A program made the position numbers and the translations under genes. A DNA stretch of 64,000 nt. It comes from Porphyromonas catoniae ATCC 51270. GTDB taxonomy: Bacteria > Bacteroidota > Bacteroidia > Bacteroidales > Porphyromonadaceae. The notes beneath the pieces were generated by a model, which did not search any database, had not been told where the DNA came from, and saw nothing but the letters and a program-made list of their open reading frames with translations. Where the stretch lies: NCBI RefSeq assembly GCF_000565015.1, contig NZ_JDFF01000024.1, positions 124,001 through 188,000 on the forward strand, in the 5' to 3' direction. Of this stretch, positions 6,971-63,077 are shown piece after piece (position 1 is the stretch's first letter; each line of letters starts with the position of its first letter).

Positions 6971-7031
6971 CACCTATGATAGGTGATGACCTTCACCTAT
7001 CATAGGTGGCATTCATCGCCTATCATAGGTG
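6971..7031. repeat. Palindrome array B: three units, 23-bp period
   Basis: Three 15-bp palindromes, CACCTATGATAGGTG (6971-6985), CACCTATCATAGGTG (6994-7008) and CGCCTATCATAGGTG (7017-7031), separated by 8-bp spacers. The array begins 11 bp after the -7 element and ends 98 bp before the HU-like start. Confidence 0.92.
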
Positions 7032-7129: not shown

Positions 7130-7513
7130 ATGATGACATTTGAAATTAAGAGCAAGGTAACCAAGCAAGGCCGTCGAGCAGGCAAGACCCTCTACTATGC
7201 CTATCCGATGAAGCGACAGAAGCTGAGCATAAAGGACGTGGAGCAACGCATTAGCGAGAGCTGTTCACTCTCTGCTGCAGATGTTCGGGCGGCTTTGGTT
7301 GCCTTCGGAGAGATTGTTTGCGACTGCTTCCAGGAGGGGATAGGCGTAGATCTTGGGGAGATGGGTACCCTTATGCCCTTCACCCAAGGACGGCTCATGG
7401 ATACCCCAGAGGAGGTGACGGTGGAGACCCTCCAGCCTGCAAAAGTAATGGTACACCCTAAGAAGAATATCCAGACGGCACTGGGGAAGATCCGCTACCG
7501 CATCAAGCGATAA
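7130..7513 (+). CDS. HU/IHF-family DNA-binding protein (paralogue 1)
   Basis: 127 residues. The Bacteroidetes HU-like pattern is present: a basic N-terminus (SKVTKQGRRAGKTLYYAYP), the helical dimerisation part (SIKDVEQRISESCSLSAADVRAALVAFGEIV), and the beta segment with GVDLGEMGTLMPF. It ends in a basic tail, HPKKNIQTALGKIRYRIKR. Longer than classical HU (about 90 aa) and without the glycine-rich tail of the two other paralogues here. Two adjacent ATG codons (7130 and 7133) are both possible starts. It probably bends or coats DNA. The upstream region contains array B between promoter and start, so autoregulation is possible but unproven. Confidence 0.85.
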   Translation: MMTFEIKSKVTKQGRRAGKTLYYAYPMKRQKLSIKDVEQRISESCSLSAADVRAALVAFGEIVCDCFQEGIGVDLGEMGTLMPFTQGRLMDTPEEVTVETLQPAKVMVHPKKNIQTALGKIRYRIKR

Positions 7514-14370: not shown

Positions 14371-14847
14371 CTAGATCCCGACGCCGCCACCTCCAGGGGA
14401 CTCGTTTTTTTCCTTAGGTTTGTCGGGCTTCTTCCCGTCTTTCTTCTGCTTGCTGACTGTCTGCTCGTAGCTCACATCAGTTAGTGTGAAGTACTTCTTC
14501 GATGGAGCCAGAAGCACAACAGGTTTCTCGATGTGGATATTTGCATTGAATTTCGTCCCTTCCTCCACTGCTTTGCTCTTGAAAGAAGGCATTAGTGTGC
14601 CGAGATCACCAAACTCTACGATGTCGCCGTTGGATACGATGTCCTTGGCGATTTCTGTAGCGTAGTTCAGGACTGCTTCTACTTCCTGACGGTTGAAGGT
14701 GGTGGACTTGGCGACTCTGTCGCAGAAGTTGCGGAAATCAACCCGATGCCGGCCCGTGGGTCTAGCAATCTGCACGGTCTTCCCTGCATGTTTTCCTACG
14801 TTTAGTTTGCGTTTAACGATTACAAACTGTAGAGGCTTATTGGCCAT
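14371..14847 (-). CDS. HU/IHF-family DNA-binding protein (paralogue 2)
   Basis: 158 residues, clearly paralogous to the protein at 52100 (shared RK-x-x-x-GK-x-x-GK-x-VQ-A-PT-R, TTFN, EVEAVLN/EVASVLN, NGDIVEFG-LG, PSFKSK and FNANIHI). The Bacteroidetes HU-like N-terminal domain of about 125 residues is followed by a lysine-rich linker and the tail ESPGGGGVGI. The tail resembles the one of the other paralogue and is flexible by composition. Likely nucleoid or DNA-repair-associated DNA binding. The promoter at 14933 shares its exact -7 element (TAACTTTG) with the paralogue; array C lies 125 bp upstream of it. Confidence 0.88.
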   Translation of the reverse strand: MANKPLQFVIVKRKLNVGKHAGKTVQIARPTGRHRVDFRNFCDRVAKSTTFNRQEVEAVLNYATEIAKDIVSNGDIVEFGDLGTLMPSFKSKAVEEGTKFNANIHIEKPVVLLAPSKKYFTLTDVSYEQTVSKQKKDGKKPDKPKEKNESPGGGGVGI

Positions 14848-15064: not shown

Positions 15065-15177
15065 AAAGTACCTAATCAATCCAGAAAAAGTACCTAATCA
15101 ATCGGGAAAATTATTAGGTAAATTTAAAAAATTATTAGGTACTTTTTCTGGATTGATTAGGTACTTTTTCTGAACTC
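15065..15177. repeat. Array C: 22-bp-period repeat forming a 34-bp perfect inverted repeat
   Basis: Two forward units begin GTACCTAAT at 15068 and 15090. Three reversed units carry ATTAGGTA at about 15112, 15134 and 15156, on the same 22-bp register. As a result 15065-15098 is the exact reverse complement of 15134-15167, with a 35-bp AT-rich centre. Unlike the other arrays, single units are not palindromic; symmetry comes from unit orientation. It lies between the divergent promoters of HU paralogue 2 (125 bp away) and ruvX (125 bp away). The remaining 473-bp gap holds nothing else recognisable. Confidence 0.88.
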
Positions 15178-22100: not shown

Positions 22101-22230
22101 GAGTTATGGTAAGTCGATGAAATGAGTTACCATAACTCGTTGTAAAGACTTACCATAACTCGTTGTAAAGACTTACCATAACTCGTTGTAAAGACTTACC
22201 ATAACTCTTTACAACGAGTTATAGTAACTC
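22101..22230. repeat. Palindrome array D: six units, 23-bp period
   Basis: 15-bp palindromes start at 22101, 22124, 22147, 22170, 22193 and 22216. The form is GAGTTACCATAACTC or GACTTACCATAACTC; the first unit is the reverse complement of the latter. Spacers are 8 bp, mostly GTTGTAAA. The same palindrome is used in array G, 21.7 kb away. The surrounding 806-bp gap (21718-22523) has no supported CDS: besides the array and promoter it holds the hairpins at 22376 and 22480. Confidence 0.95.
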
Positions 22231-25111: not shown

Positions 25112-26418
25112 AGTCCTTTGTTTGTCTTCCAATCCTCTAGATAATGTGCTACCGCTTGTAGGAATGCTCCACCAAGCATGCCGTCGATGATGCGGTGGTC
25201 ATAGGAGAAAGAGAGGTACATTTTATGACGTGTAGCAACCACATCACCTGATACTGTCTCTAGGATAGCTAGCTCCTTCTCTATAGCACCAATGCCAAGA
25301 ATGGCCGCCTCGGGCTGGTTGATAATCGGTGTGCCAAAGAGCGTACCTGACGATCCATAGTTTGAGATGGTGAACGTCCCTCCTGACATCTCGTCTGGGG
25401 AGAGCTTACCAGATCGGCTCTTCTCTGCTAGTTGAGATACTTGCTCTGCAACGCCCGTACGGCTGAGCTTGTCAGCATCATGTATCACAGGGACGACTAG
25501 GTTGCCATCGGGGAGGGCGACAGCCATCCCTACGTTGATATGCTTACGCTCAATGATGTTGTAGCCATCCACAGATGCATTGATACGAGGGTATTGCTTT
25601 AGTGCATGAGCTACGGCTTCGATAACTGGGGTCATATAAGTAAGAGCGAAGCCTTCCTTCTTTTTGAAGGCATCCTTCTCAGCCTCACGCCATGCTACAA
25701 GATCTGTAATGTCAATCTTCATGAAGCTCGTCACATGCGGTGCAACCTGTACGGATTGTACCATGCGGTCAGCAATGATGCGACGGATTGGATCCATTGG
25801 GATAACCTTATCATCTGCCCCAATAGATATGGTAGGAGCTGTGACCTGAGGACGGGAAGATTGTGGTGCTACCACGCTCGCGGATCGCTCTACACGTGGC
25901 GTAGGTGCTGGTGCTCCCTTCTTCTGTTCAATATAGCGAACAATATCAGCCTTGCTTACACGTCCCCCAAAGCCTGTACCTTGTATGCTATCTAGCTCCT
26001 CCTGAGAGACCTTTGCAGCCTTAGCTCGCTCTATTACCACAGGGGAATACCATCGCTCTACTGAACCTCGGTGTACCTCAGTGACAGCAGGTGTAGGAGT
26101 GTCCTTTGTTTCGATACGAGCCTGAGGAGTCTCTTCCTTTGGTTCCTTTGTTGCAGATGGTGCTACTGTGGCATCTACATCTGTATCGACGACAACGACC
26201 GGAAGACCTACGGGGACAGTATCGCCCTCTGCATAGTTAATCTTGACAATCTTACCTGCTACGGGTGAGGGTATTGTTGCCGCAGTCTTTGCGGACGTAA
26301 TCTCAAAGAGTTCGGTATCTTCCTCGATGAAGTCTCCTACCTTGACGTTGAGTACCGTGATCGTACACTCGGTCACGCTCTCACCCATCTTCGGCATCTT
26401 AATATCGAATGTTGCCAT
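25108..26418 (-). CDS. Dihydrolipoamide acyltransferase (E2)
   Basis: Core of the 2-oxoacid dehydrogenase complex, 436 residues. One N-terminal lipoyl domain (lipoyl Lys in EITSAKTAATI, about residue 46) is followed by a Pro/Thr-rich linker. The peripheral-subunit binding domain is YSPVVIERAKAAKVSQEELD with GTGFGGRVSKADI (about 126-160), then another linker and the catalytic domain (about 205-430) with FTISNYGSSGT and SYDHRIIDG, the active-site His. Middle gene of lpd-E2-E1-flavodoxin. Confidence 0.95.
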   Translation of the reverse strand: MATFDIKMPKMGESVTECTITVLNVKVGDFIEEDTELFEITSAKTAATIPSPVAGKIVKINYAEGDTVPVGLPVVVVDTDVDATVAPSATKEPKEETPQARIETKDTPTPAVTEVHRGSVERWYSPVVIERAKAAKVSQEELDSIQGTGFGGRVSKADIVRYIEQKKGAPAPTPRVERSASVVAPQSSRPQVTAPTISIGADDKVIPMDPIRRIIADRMVQSVQVAPHVTSFMKIDITDLVAWREAEKDAFKKKEGFALTYMTPVIEAVAHALKQYPRINASVDGYNIIERKHINVGMAVALPDGNLVVPVIHDADKLSRTGVAEQVSQLAEKSRSGKLSPDEMSGGTFTISNYGSSGTLFGTPIINQPEAAILGIGAIEKELAILETVSGDVVATRHKMYLSFSYDHRIIDGMLGGAFLQAVAHYLEDWKTNKGL

Positions 26419-29356: not shown

Positions 29357-29468
29357 TTTCTACTCATGGCTTCCTTTTGACACCCACGAGTGGGTTACCC
29401 TCGACACCCACCCGTGGGTTCCCTTAGTTATGTACTCGTGCATTCCCTCGGATACCCACGAGTGGGTA
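29357..29468. repeat. Palindrome array E: four clear units plus one weak, 24-bp period
   Basis: ACCCAC..GTGGGT palindromes have cores starting at 29382, 29406, 29430 (changed to ATGTACTCGTGCAT) and 29454, each 24 bp apart. A weak fifth unit at 29357 (TACTCATGGCTT) resembles the third. Spacers are C/T-rich (for example CCCTCGGA). The same palindrome occurs in array F, 8.5 kb away. The rest of the 415-bp gap holds only the manC promoter. Confidence 0.9.
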
Positions 29469-37919: not shown

Positions 37920-38007
37920 TACCCACTCGTGGGTACCAAGTGCAACCCACTCGTGGGTATTAAAGAAGATGCACGAGTGGGTATCAAAAGAACCCCACGA
38001 GTGGGTA
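37920..38007. repeat. Palindrome array F: four units, 24-bp period
   Basis: 16-bp palindromes TACCCACTCGTGGGTA (37920-37935), AACCCACTCGTGGGTA (37944), GATGCACGAGTGGGTA (37968) and ACCCCACGAGTGGGTA (37992), with 8-bp spacers. Same palindrome as array E but with different spacers. It lies 140 bp upstream of the lptG -7 element and 90 bp past the GT2 stop. The rest of the 351-bp gap is C-rich and shows no gene. Confidence 0.92.
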
Positions 38008-38097
38008 CTAAAAGGAGGCAAGAAGTGAGGTCTGAAGAAATAGAAAAGGTTGCTTCCTCCTTGTCCTTTACTCCCCAATCTTCCTTACACCTTCTTA

Positions 38098-43638: not shown

Positions 43639-43887
43639 CAACGTTATATGTAAAGCCCCAAGAGAAGGGTGTATAATCACTATTACTAACGTGAGTTTGG
43701 CGGTAGGAAGTGTCGCTCTATAGAACGAAGAAACAGCTATCAGGTTAAACTCTCCTTTGCAGCCTCTAGGTCGGGATGCTTCCCTCTACTTCTTTGCTTG
43801 TTTCTTTTCGATTTGTCCCCCTTATTCAAATAAGATTATCACCCGTAGCAAATCTCCTAGATACAAGGCTTGTAGAGGGGAGACAAC

Positions 43888-43994
43888 GACTTACCATAAG
43901 TCACCGTAACGAGTTACCATAACTCTCTTCGATGACTTACCATAACTTGTTTAAGCGATTTACTATAACTCTTTGTGACGACTTATGGTAACTC
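43888..43994. repeat. Palindrome array G: five units, 23-bp period
   Basis: 15-bp units start at 43888, 43911, 43934, 43957 and 43980. GACTTACCATAAGTC and GAGTTACCATAACTC differ by a compensating pair exchange; the others are intermediate. Spacers are 8 bp and vary (ACCGTAAC, TCTTCGAT, GTTTAAGC, TTTGTGAC). Same palindrome as array D. It is 250 bp upstream of the tRNA-Arg promoter in an 814-bp gap that otherwise shows only the two hairpins at 44213 and 44281. Confidence 0.94.
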
Positions 43995-44212
43995 GTTACA
44001 CCTGACACCTCCATTCTTCATATCTCATTCAATATAAGATAAATACAGGTCCCCTCTGGATCGACTGTAAAGCTCATGCGAAACTCACGTTATTGTGCGG
44101 GATATTAGGATGCTTTCGAAATGGGCAGTAGGGGATAGAAAAGTTTGGGAATAAAAAGCGACAGGTCTCCGATAGGGTATTCCTATTTATAGCAATACAT
44201 GACCTGGAATCA

Positions 44213-50727: not shown

Positions 50728-51870
50728 TTAGATATTAAATCCGAAGAATCTCATGCCACTCTCAGAGTTGAGATTGATCATAGGATACTTCTCAGGGTAA
50801 TACCAAGCAATGAGTTCGCTAGCAGAGGATATCCCAAAGTACTTGATCTCCCCAATAACCTCTTCAATAAGTTGGGAATTGATAGAGGGGGCCTGTATAA
50901 GTCGATTCCATGCCCTGGCGATGCTTCGTGGATCATTCTCAGAAAGTATTTTGGTCTTATTCAATGGCCGGCTGTGTAGGCAGTGTAGACACTCCAAAAC
51001 TTCCTCTATCTTCTCCTTTCGAGGAGAGTCACCAGCTTTAAAAGGGAGGAGTTCACGGATGCGATTCCTACGATCTAAGCGCCACAGTCCACTTCCAGGA
51101 GCATAGGACATGGACATTAACTCAAAGTAGCGGAGTATCTCTTGCTTCACCTCCCTTGAAGTTAATGATCGATTCTTATTACACCCCTTAGAGGGCTTGT
51201 CCGGATGATCATGGTAGAGGAAGTTAAAGAAGTAGTCTAGTTCTTCATACAGAGAGAACCCCTCTCGGACCATCTGCTGATTACGTCCTGTGACGGACTC
51301 GTATAGAGAGGCCAATTCTTTGAACTGATCGCATTTTTTAAGAAACTGGTCACTTGCCCCAGAAGTGTACTTAGGTAGCTTATAGAGTACCTTATATTTA
51401 GTCGAGTCCTCTTTATTTGTAATAGTTTTGGAAGGAGATGGGGGCAGAGATGAGACTGCCTGAGCCTTCTTCCACCACTGGTCAAATAGCGTGACCACCT
51501 GCTCTATCCCAGACACCACCTGTCCGACTTCGTGCCTAGCACTGAACGCCATTCCTGTAAGATTCGCAGAGGTCAAGAGACACCAATCATCTATGAGGTA
51601 GATTTTTGCGTGCAAACTTAACAGACTACGAATTTCGGTGTTGGGGCTTTCCTTAAATTGGGCATAAGTGTCACGACGAATAAAGCCTGACTCGACATCA
51701 GTTAGTACTCGAAAATCTATGTGGCTACGCATCCAGTTCCCACCAATGATCTTCTGCACATCTTTGAAATTCCCAATATAGGGAGAGGCTATCCAGATAC
51801 GTTTTTTCGCTTGGTCACAATGCTCTCTCAGAGCATTGACGAGGTTTTGACCTGACAGTATAGTATTCAT
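50728..51870 (-). CDS. PLD-family nuclease-like protein with a helical C-terminal domain
   Basis: 380 residues. An N-terminal phospholipase-D-like domain (about 1-135) carries one HKD motif, HAKIYLIDD (H87, K89, D94), followed by SANLTG. A single motif suggests a homodimeric nuclease, as in Nuc/BfiI types. The middle (140-200) is a linker. The C-terminal half is helical and ends SELIAWYYPEKYPMINLNSESGMRFFGF, which recalls the 'L..L.PEKYP..N' domain found near McrB and other restriction proteins. A role in defence or DNA processing is inference. Leftward, 12 bp after a small membrane protein gene and the HU paralogue. Confidence 0.75.
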   Translation of the reverse strand: MNTILSGQNLVNALREHCDQAKKRIWIASPYIGNFKDVQKIIGGNWMRSHIDFRVLTDVESGFIRRDTYAQFKESPNTEIRSLLSLHAKIYLIDDWCLLTSANLTGMAFSARHEVGQVVSGIEQVVTLFDQWWKKAQAVSSLPPSPSKTITNKEDSTKYKVLYKLPKYTSGASDQFLKKCDQFKELASLYESVTGRNQQMVREGFSLYEELDYFFNFLYHDHPDKPSKGCNKNRSLTSREVKQEILRYFELMSMSYAPGSGLWRLDRRNRIRELLPFKAGDSPRKEKIEEVLECLHCLHSRPLNKTKILSENDPRSIARAWNRLIQAPSINSQLIEEVIGEIKYFGISSASELIAWYYPEKYPMINLNSESGMRFFGFNI

Positions 51871-52099: not shown

Positions 52100-52585
52100 T
52101 TATATTCCTACATACCCGCCTCCAGGGGTGTCATTCGAAGAGCCACCTCCAGCGTTAGGTTTCGCTTTCTTAGCCTTCTTCGTGCGGGGAGCGACCCGCT
52201 CGAAGCTGACATCATCCAAGCGGAAGTACTCGGCATTGGGGCGTAGCGTCACGCGAGCTTCGGTGATGTGGATGTTGGCATTGAATTCCTCTCCCTTGGG
52301 TACGACCTTGCTCTTGAAGCTAGGCTTCAGTTTACCGAGGCGTCCGAACTCGACCATATCGCCGTTAGCGACGAGTTTTCTCGCCATATCGGCGGCTAGA
52401 TTGAGCACGGAGGCAACCTCCATGTAGTTGAAAGTAGTTTGGTCGGCGACCATTTCGCAGAAGTGGTCGAAGGAGACGCTACGTCGGTCTGTGGGCGAAG
52501 CTACTTGTACAATCTTCCCTTTGAGCTTGCCAATGCTCATTTTTCTTTCGCGTAGCACGTAGGCTAAAGGCTTATTCTTTCCCAT
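52100..52585 (-). CDS. HU/IHF-family DNA-binding protein (paralogue 3)
   Basis: 161 residues from the ATG at 52585 (a TTG at 52594 would add three). Same HU-like domain as the protein at 14371, with RERKMSIGKLKGKIVQVASP, TTFNYMEVASVLN, NGDMVEFGRLGKLKPSFKSK and FNANIHI. A short Lys-rich linker leads to the tail DTPGGGYVGI. Promoter TAACTTTG at 52648; array H begins 18 bp upstream of it and therefore covers the -33 region. Heads a likely unit with the small membrane protein and the PLD gene. Confidence 0.87.
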   Translation of the reverse strand: MGKNKPLAYVLRERKMSIGKLKGKIVQVASPTDRRSVSFDHFCEMVADQTTFNYMEVASVLNLAADMARKLVANGDMVEFGRLGKLKPSFKSKVVPKGEEFNANIHITEARVTLRPNAEYFRLDDVSFERVAPRTKKAKKAKPNAGGGSSNDTPGGGYVGI

Positions 52586-52673: not shown

Positions 52674-52841
52674 TTCCTATATAGCTTCACCCCAAAAGCT
52701 ATATAGGAATGCGATGATTACTATGTAGTAATCGGGGCGATCCTATATAGTAATCTCCCGAAAGCTATATAGGAACACAAAGAAAGCTATATAGCAATCG
52801 GGCGAATCCTATATAGGAATCAGCCCAAAGCTATATAGCTT
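52674..52841. repeat. Palindrome array H: eight units, exact 22-bp period
   Basis: 14-bp palindromes are centred at 52680.5 and then every 22 bp to 52834.5, all sharing CTATATAG (CTATGTAG in the third). Flanking half-sites are exchanged between units: AAGC..GCTT (unit 8), TTAC..GTAA (unit 3), TCC..GGA (unit 7), and hybrids such as AAGC..GGAA. Spacers are 8 bp (for example CACCCCAA, TGCGATGA). It fills most of the gap between the TIR-like gene and HU paralogue 3; nothing else is seen there. Confidence 0.96.
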
Positions 52842-52892: not shown

Positions 52893-53735
52893 TTACTTCA
52901 GTAATTTGTTTGGGTCAAACTCATAGCCACAGGCCTGCAGTTCCTTGCCTACGGCTAACTTCCAACCTCCCCCTTCATCCATTGGGATGTAGACGACACC
53001 AGATATATCAGTAGGCTTCTCGATATCTCCTTTGACAAGGGCACAGACATTCTTTCGTCCAATTTTCCCGATGAGGTAGCCGTGTTCAAAGACTACATTC
53101 TGTCTTGCCCGAGGTTTCAGTTGCTCTCCCTTCTTTTGGGATGTGCCCAAGTCACAAGGGGTATACAGCACGATGCCAAACCCAACATTAGTATTCGCTT
53201 CGATCTTTTCGATGATCGTCCTCCCTGAACTCGCTTGTTCATCCAGGATAATAGCCTCAAGATCCAATTTCTCTATGAACCCAGCAACCGCTAGCCGTGC
53301 AGCTTCGTCATGCCCATGCACGATGAAGACTTTGGATTTGTCCATAGGAGCTTTGGGTTTGGTCACTGTTGGTGCTTCAGGTTGGGGCGTAGCTTCCTGA
53401 AGAAGACTTCTGCACTCCTTGAGGATATTCCTTGTAATATCCTTGGTGTAGTCACTACGTTTAATGATACCTTCTCGTGGAATAGGTAAAAAAACATTAG
53501 GCCCCCGCCGTCTTTTCACTTCGATAACATATTCTTTTGATGTGTAAGCTGATTCTCCAATTACAATACGTTTCACCTTCGCTTCATCAAGGAAATATCC
53601 ACTAAATACGAATTGCTCCCCTTTTAAATAGGGAATAATGAACTCATCTTTAATTTCTGACAGATCCGTCTTGTCCAGTTCATAATATGGTTCGCTGGAT
53701 TCATAGGACTCAATAAGTACGTGGTAGTATGGCAT
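52893..53735 (-). CDS. TIR-like nucleotide-binding (CAP12/PycTIR-type) protein
   Basis: 280 residues from the ATG at 53735. The N-terminal domain (about 1-105) is of unknown type, with alternating strands. A Pro-rich linker (about 110-132) follows. The C-terminal TIR-like domain (about 133-280) reads KVFIVHGHDEAARLAV, ILDEQASSGRTIIEKIE (includes the candidate catalytic Glu), VLYTPCDLG, RARQNVVFEHGYLIGKIGR, DISGVVYIPMDE and WKLAVGKELQACGY. This is the family called predicted nucleotide-binding protein with TIR-like domain, found as the NAD-cleaving effector of some cyclic-nucleotide-triggered anti-phage systems. No cyclase gene is adjacent here. Confidence 0.85.
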   Translation of the reverse strand: MPYYHVLIESYESSEPYYELDKTDLSEIKDEFIIPYLKGEQFVFSGYFLDEAKVKRIVIGESAYTSKEYVIEVKRRRGPNVFLPIPREGIIKRSDYTKDITRNILKECRSLLQEATPQPEAPTVTKPKAPMDKSKVFIVHGHDEAARLAVAGFIEKLDLEAIILDEQASSGRTIIEKIEANTNVGFGIVLYTPCDLGTSQKKGEQLKPRARQNVVFEHGYLIGKIGRKNVCALVKGDIEKPTDISGVVYIPMDEGGGWKLAVGKELQACGYEFDPNKLLK

Positions 53736-53823
53736 AAGCACTTGTGTTATTTGAGTGTATTGTCGGACAAAGATAAGAAACAGAAGTAAGGAGATAACGA
53801 AGTGAAGTACTCGAAGGGACTAC

Positions 53824-62966: not shown

Positions 62967-63077
62967 TTCCCTAGCAAGGAAGGAAAAGGAAACCCTTGCA
63001 AGGACGATCGTGAGATCCTTGCAAGGGTTAAACAAGTGACCCATGCTAGGGTCTGAAGGGAAGACCTAGCATGGGTC
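62967..63077. repeat. Palindrome array I: five units, 23-24-bp period
   Basis: Palindromes are centred on GC at 62974.5, 62998.5, 63021.5, 63045.5 and 63069.5. Sequences are CCCTAGCAAGG, CCTTGCAAGG (twice), GACCCATGCTAGGGTC and GACCTAGCATGGGTC. Spacers are about 8 bp. Two sub-families (CCTTGCAAGG and GACCC..GGGTC) occur side by side. Confidence 0.9.

Follow-up and report, generated by a model that had tools for sequence, protein, structure and literature searches.

A tandem-palindrome array upstream of a Porphyromonas HU-HIG gene as a candidate binding array for the adjacent protein

Introduction

Between two minus-strand genes of the window, by which we mean the whole 64,000-nucleotide stretch of Porphyromonas catoniae DNA analysed here, lies a series of eight short palindromes, hereafter array H. 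The locus raises the question of which part of such a repeat is kept in evolution and what might read it. A first-pass annotation had proposed that exchange between the outer half-sites of each unit maintains dyad symmetry, and that the array could control the neighbouring gene for an HU-like protein. We addressed both proposals by comparing array H with related loci across the genus.

Layout of array H and its neighbours

Array H consists of eight 8-bp palindromic cores (52677-52838) at an exact 22-bp step, separated by seven 14-nt spacers. The cores start at 52677, 52699, 52721, 52743, 52765, 52787, 52809 and 52831, coordinates that confirm the regular spacing of the eight units described earlier. 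The core itself had been called invariant, which is wrong: seven of the eight units carry CTATATAG, and unit 3 (52721-52728) reads CTATGTAG, the sole departure; the P. pasteri core aligned to this unit is CTATATAG. Tandem Repeats Finder also recovered the array. When the 25 contigs of the window's own genome were searched for a two-core pattern with up to 2 mismatches, all 7 forward matches fell within array H, against 1 match for a reversed control pattern. Array H is real and far beyond chance. A CRISPR array was considered and rejected: CRISPR repeats are about 21-48 nt long with unique spacers, whereas the conserved part here is 8 bp with 14-nt spacers. The features flanking the array are as follows.

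52100-52585, minus strand: HU-HIG gene downstream of array H (161 aa; HU paralogue 3 of the first-pass annotation), Pfam PF18291, E 2.3e-13
52655-52648, minus strand: putative -7-like element TAACTTTG of the HU gene, read by eye
52893-53741, minus strand: gene with a CAP12/Pycsar-type TIR domain on the far side of array H, Pfam PF10137, E 1.9e-39

The array thus lies about 90 bp upstream of the HU-HIG gene and between it and the TIR-domain gene. The HU protein scores 50.7 bits against the PF18291 profile and exceeds the curated cut-off of 26.2. Its P. pasteri orthologue is 94% identical, and the genome of the window is close to P. pasteri. An AlphaFold model of the protein, built with 5 sequences, reached a mean pLDDT of 58.8, too poor for use, and a PDB sequence search at E 0.01 returned no match. 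A gene with a PLD-like domain (PF13091) is found nearby at 50728-51870.

TAnnTTTG is the Bacteroidetes form of the -7 element. The -7-like TAACTTTG, whose P. pasteri counterpart is TAACTTCG, was placed by eye and would put core 1 of array H near the expected -33 region. The proposed location of the array at the -33 region of the HU promoter therefore holds as to its promoter-side position, with core 1 near -33 as judged by eye. The number of cores at this locus varies among species (8, 10 and 2). At the counterpart in genome G012 (L044, partly masked), only two CTATATAG cores are left beside the TIR-domain gene, no HU gene was found and a tRNA gene, seen by eye, lies nearby.

Conserved and variable parts of the array

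The P. pasteri counterpart of array H was located by way of its HU protein, so that the choice of locus did not depend on the core. Aligning the two arrays from the far end gave the best register, with a mean of 9.7 of 14 spacer letters shared over 7 spacers; the next best register reached 8.5 over only 4 spacers. In the best register, the cores are identical at 63 of 64 positions and the spacers at 68 of 98. The cores of array H are under constraint. This contrast bears directly on the view that the array is a functionless tandem repeat kept by slippage and gene conversion. Some within-array repeats are indeed near identical, and the number of cores differs by species as such a view would allow. 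However, homogenisation predicts spacers as alike as the cores, which the comparison with P. pasteri contradicts, and the spacers of array H vary from unit to unit. We regard a functionless repeat as highly improbable.

The symmetry of the units beyond the core is a separate matter. The first-pass annotation had distinguished three classes of half-site, combined in matched pairs in units 3, 7 and 8 and as hybrids elsewhere, and had read compensatory exchange from the fact that the matched pairs differ in sequence. The three matched units stand, but the set of classes is incomplete, as unit 6 carries a fourth half-site, GCAA. At the level of flanking triplets, units 3 and 8 are matched with different sequences, as is unit 7 at lower resolution. 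Nevertheless, the number of matches is what random pairing gives. The annotation's own classes yield 3 matched units where 2.4 are expected (a hand count), and flanking triplets match in 2 of the 8 units (1.7 expected, p 0.53). The 100 unique cores from four genomes include 20 matches against an expectation of 18.7 (p 0.39), and when three HU-locus arrays are pooled, 4 of 20 units match, with an expectation of 4.3. The triplets flanking 8 cores aligned with P. pasteri are kept on both sides in 4 cases, changed on the left only in 2, on the right only in 1 and on both sides in 1, and the core that changed on both sides is symmetric in neither species. The pairing of halves is thus random and most changes are one-sided, which speaks against the proposed exchange and the claim that matching halves preserve the dyad. 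Independent drift of the half-sites, which the annotation had itself named as the outcome that would speak against it, is what we find, between species rather than between strains. That compensatory exchange keeps each unit a matched dyad is a view to which we give almost no credence. As judged from these sequence comparisons, half-sites drift independently, and the 8-bp core and the step are what is kept.

A dyad centred on the spacer was likewise rejected. The spacer ends match in 0 of 69 unique spacers (pooled, four letters), with 8.7 expected. Since this is less than chance, the spacers are directional.

Arrays at HU-HIG genes across Porphyromonas

The window's two other HU-HIG genes are likewise preceded by repeats.

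6971-7031, no strand assigned: array of three CACCTATSATAGGTG cores (the third being CGCCTATCATAGGTG) at a 23-bp step, upstream of the HU-HIG gene at 7130-7513
7130-7513, plus strand: HU-HIG gene behind the 6971-7031 array, Pfam PF18291, E 3e-18
15065-15165, no strand assigned: TACCTAAT-type 22-bp repeats in both orientations (15065-15110 from Tandem Repeats Finder, the remainder identified by eye), preceding the HU-HIG gene at 14371-14847
14371-14847, minus strand: HU-HIG gene behind the 15065-15165 repeats, Pfam PF18291, E 3.8e-17

HU-HIG genes are numerous in the genus, with up to 17 matches per genome. Among 195 HU-HIG profile matches in 26 Porphyromonas genomes, 132 upstream regions were read with a tandem-palindrome detector that counted arrays of at least 3 units at a score of at least 9; shuffled window tiles gave 1 hit in 477 at score 5 and 0 at score 9. 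By this standard, 42 of the 132 regions carry an array, compared with 0 of 660 dinucleotide shuffles, and 90 lack one. The detector is strict: it passes over array H and its counterpart in P. pasteri, as well as the repeats at 15065. Steps between 15 and 40 bp were permitted, yet 129 of 132 fall at 21-24 bp. The step also depends on the type of palindrome: even palindromes are spaced at 22 bp in 29 of 35 arrays (of the other six, three have a 21-bp step, two a 23-bp step and one a 24-bp step), and odd ones at 23 bp in 7 of 7. The step tends to equal 22 with the central gap added, which would be consistent with adjacent dimers making a fixed contact. In seven genomes outside the genus, 4 of 26 HU-HIG genes (L247, L248, L252 and L256) lie behind an array of at least 3 units, one of the 26 (L255) being largely masked.

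How particular such arrays are to HU-HIG genes has to be judged with the length of the upstream gap in view. In four genomes, arrays were detected at 20 of 51 HU genes and at 19 of 316 other genes (Fisher 2e-9), a comparison in which gap lengths are unequal: the median upstream gap is 375 bp for HU genes, counted from the profile start, and 110 bp for controls. The control genes came from stretches picked by coordinate, and a response-regulator control set (14 loci) was set aside. One of the 19 control genes is the divergent neighbour of the 7130 gene and lies behind the same array. We then applied minimum gap lengths to 47 HU loci and 290 control genes. At gaps of at least 150 bp, arrays occur at 15 of 41 HU loci and 17 of 136 controls (p 0.001); at 250 bp or more, the figures are 12 of 34 and 15 of 105 (p 0.012); and at 350 bp or more, 8 of 27 and 12 of 85 (p 0.085). 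The excess shrinks at long gaps, which indicates that gap length accounts for part of the raw HU excess. At 67 HU loci, an array lies upstream in 21 and downstream in 1, the lengths of the two sides being unmatched. Because arrays of the build of array H recur upstream of HU-HIG genes throughout the genus, control of the adjacent HU gene by occupancy of array H is plausible.

Core sequences and HU protein similarity

HU proteins are usually not sequence-specific. If the arrays are occupied, the reader could be another regulator, shared by the HU promoters or local, with the HU protein merely its regulated product. The position before the gene and the conserved cores would suit any DNA-binding dimer. 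Moreover, genomes G005 and G012 hold CTATATAG arrays away from any HU gene (L042, L043 and L044), and the G012 HU homologue L081, 51% identical to the array H protein, has no CTATATAG core upstream. Against a single shared reader, the HU paralogues mostly differ in core; the exception is L053 and L060, two HU genes of the window's own genome that have one common core (ACCCACNNGTGGGT). Site sequences differ between HU-like genes, which suggests that each protein may recognise a sequence of its own.

The cores also track the similarity of the HU proteins, which argues further against another regulator. For the 20 most alike HU pairs, compared over 40 residues from the profile start, drawn from different species and with the sister pair G005/G007 excluded, the cores share 9.0 of 14 letters, as opposed to 4.9 when permuted within genomes, and 0 of 1000 permutations were as high. 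Over all 744 pairs, the relation between protein and core likeness is weak (Spearman 0.17). One core word, AAACGTATACGTTT, is found upstream of similar HU genes in four species, where the spacers, aligned in their best register, are 0.50-0.65 identical; the cores of this group are 0.86 identical, a value that is partly by construction, as they were chosen by likeness to that word. Common ancestry of the upstream DNA of orthologues could contribute to the likeness of cores. Closer to array H, four HU proteins that are 51-62% identical to its own and have arrays (L079, L067, L076 and L091) carry different cores, and no array was found upstream of the nearest paralogue in the window's own genome, L058 (64%). 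Taking both sides together, we consider it rather unlikely that a regulator other than the HU protein binds the array.

Dispersed arrays and a mobile element

Arrays with HU-gene cores also occur elsewhere in the genomes. Dispersed families were collected without reference to HU genes. The window and 20 stretches of 20 kb in three relatives were surveyed for arrays of at least 3 units, and the 20 stretches hold no listed HU-HIG match. Including the window's two-unit ACCCACNNGTGGGT arrays and excluding the array before the 7130 gene, there are 13 families; the CTATATAG family, which was identified starting from the HU locus, is for that reason not counted. Nine of the 13 reappear upstream of an HU gene in their own genome, in most cases a single one, where 3.7 are expected (P 8e-4); the expectation derives from the control genes, two of the chances having been assigned manually. 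For families F6, F9, F11 and F13, there is no HU partner in their own genomes. The HU partner of the TTACCATAA family rests on a single site, and scoring it as a miss leaves 8 of 13 (P 0.006).

A search of the window's own genome for the core of the 7130 gene returned 42 sites (reversed control, 1). All but one of these sites (41 of 42) lie in 15 loci, including the HU locus, and 14 loci have three units at 23 bp. With spacers only 0.38-0.44 identical, these loci are not recent copies of one another; the core likeness of 0.92 follows from the search. A plain promoter regulon is not evident for this family, as its loci flank varied genes and some lie at 3' ends. The cores of two more HU genes, searched in the same genome, were found at 3 loci (with one lone weak match in addition) and at 2 loci.

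Several further arrays were observed in the window. TTACCATAA-type palindrome arrays at 23 bp occupy 22101-22230 and 43886-44000, and the corresponding two-unit pattern (up to 2 mismatches, own genome) gives 214 forward and 171 reverse matches with 0 for the reversed control, marking a very abundant family. Short ACCCACNNGTGGGT arrays at 24 bp occur at 29379-29424 and 37921-38012, and this family also stands before the HU genes L053 and L060. Four ACCCTTGCAAGGGT-type palindromes at 23-24 bp lie between two genes at 62968-63070, and two such sites precede the HU gene L048. Among dispersed CACCTATNATAGGTG loci (L263-L274), a further degenerate inverted repeat is apparent by eye outside the three units, with AGTT...AACCT at the left and its complement at the right.

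The CTATATAG core has a distinct history in P. pasteri. The exact two-core pattern occurs in 4 of 26 Porphyromonas genomes, and P. pasteri (G010) holds 152 forward places of it, where CTATATAG cores form the inside of a dispersed element. Among 17 loci compared of 20 fetched, a left flank is common to all 17 (about 345 nt in most) and a right flank is present in 12 (about 160 nt in most); IS5-like end words are found in part of the copies. One P. pasteri locus (L119:14853) combines two families in a single 22-bp register, four AGGGTATATACCCT-type units being followed by three of GTTATATTAC type. Array H might have arrived at the HU gene as the minisatellite within a BrickBuilt-like mobile element, any regulation being incidental; the common flanks of the P. 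pasteri element and the IS5-like ends of some of its copies speak for this. However, the leader and tail flanks of the element were not seen at the HU-locus arrays of either the window species or P. pasteri. The leader, present in at least 29 copies in P. pasteri, is absent at E 0.001 from the other 25 Porphyromonas genomes, that of the window included. Exact searches on both strands for two IS5-like terminal inverted repeat words matched the window only at 26006 and 39241, with none near array H.

The direction of transfer can also be judged from the spacers. One spacer of the P. pasteri HU locus has 4 exact occurrences among the 60 spacers from 19 dispersed loci, the remaining eight spacers have none, and 13 of the 14 letters of the recurring spacer are present in the window. 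Since a spacer of the HU locus recurs at dispersed loci and the HU-locus array is common to the window species and P. pasteri, the element probably took up its array from the HU locus rather than bringing it there. We consider it improbable that array H began as part of a mobile element.

A binding-array model

We hold it to be probable, if only just, that array H is a cooperative binding array for the adjacent HU-HIG protein and controls that protein's own gene. Each CTATATAG core would be one contact site. At a step of 22 bp, neighbouring sites would share one face of the helix, separated by about two turns, and dimers could sit side by side. The binder would be the HU-HIG protein encoded beside the array, from which it would regulate its own expression. 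Other HU-HIG paralogues would act likewise through cores of their own, with dispersed arrays of a given core serving as additional binding places. Protein binding, the adjacent HU protein as binder and regulation of the gene are all three steps that we infer.

A wider proposal is more tentative, and we place it somewhat short of probable. In Porphyromonas, and perhaps in other Bacteroidales, HU-HIG paralogues may be sequence-specific nucleoid proteins, each with its own tandem-palindrome code at a two-turn pitch that would mark its own promoter, and each acting at dispersed arrays of the same code. BrickBuilt would be one such code, and the mobile element of P. pasteri would have spread another. 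If true, the expanded HU-like family of these oral bacteria would consist of sequence-specific regulators whose codes can be read, and a binder would be at hand for several kinds of intergenic repeat that lack an explanation, BrickBuilt among them. The proposal predicts that each HU-HIG protein binds the core before its own gene and not the cores of its paralogues. That HU-HIG paralogues should each be paired with a palindrome code of its own looks new: a literature search over titles and the starts of abstracts returned no link between HU-HIG genes and arrays, nor did it return the 2017 paper that reportedly defined HU-HIG.

Comparison with known systems

IHF is a protein of the HU fold. Its sites in Correia-type repeats offer a likeness, in that a protein acts at an intergenic repeat and a promoter (PMC10969869). 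However, IHF recognises one kind of site of 30-35 bp, whereas here many paralogues are proposed to have each its own tandem palindrome (PMC10969869). In P. gingivalis, the HU protein PG0121 and a 77-bp inverted repeat at the capsule locus tie an HU protein of the genus to an inverted repeat near its gene (PMC3969353). The difference is that the abstract describes binding to DNA architectures, and not a paralogue-specific palindrome array (PMC3969353).

BrickBuilt, a minisatellite/MITE of P. gingivalis with the consensus AGAYCATARTATCCTCTCRTRTG in 23-nt units (PMC4596501), resembles array H in consisting of intergenic tandem units of about two helical turns. One copy, BrickBuilt_14, is listed in a table of that paper beside a DNA-binding protein gene (PF00216). 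Array H differs in its 22-bp step and CTATATAG core, which do not follow the 23-nt BrickBuilt consensus (PMC4596501). The sections consulted treat the repeat as one element and do not report paralogue-specific families at HU genes (PMC4596501). Family F4 of genome G005 fits the BrickBuilt consensus by eye and is also found before the HU-HIG gene L071.

In autoregulatory operator arrays of transcription factors, dyads at regular intervals precede the gene for the protein that binds them. Array H shares this arrangement, with evenly spaced dyads before the gene of its presumed binder. It departs from such arrays in its kind of presumed binder, an HU protein of the nucleoid type, a group that reaches 17 matches in a single genome of the genus.
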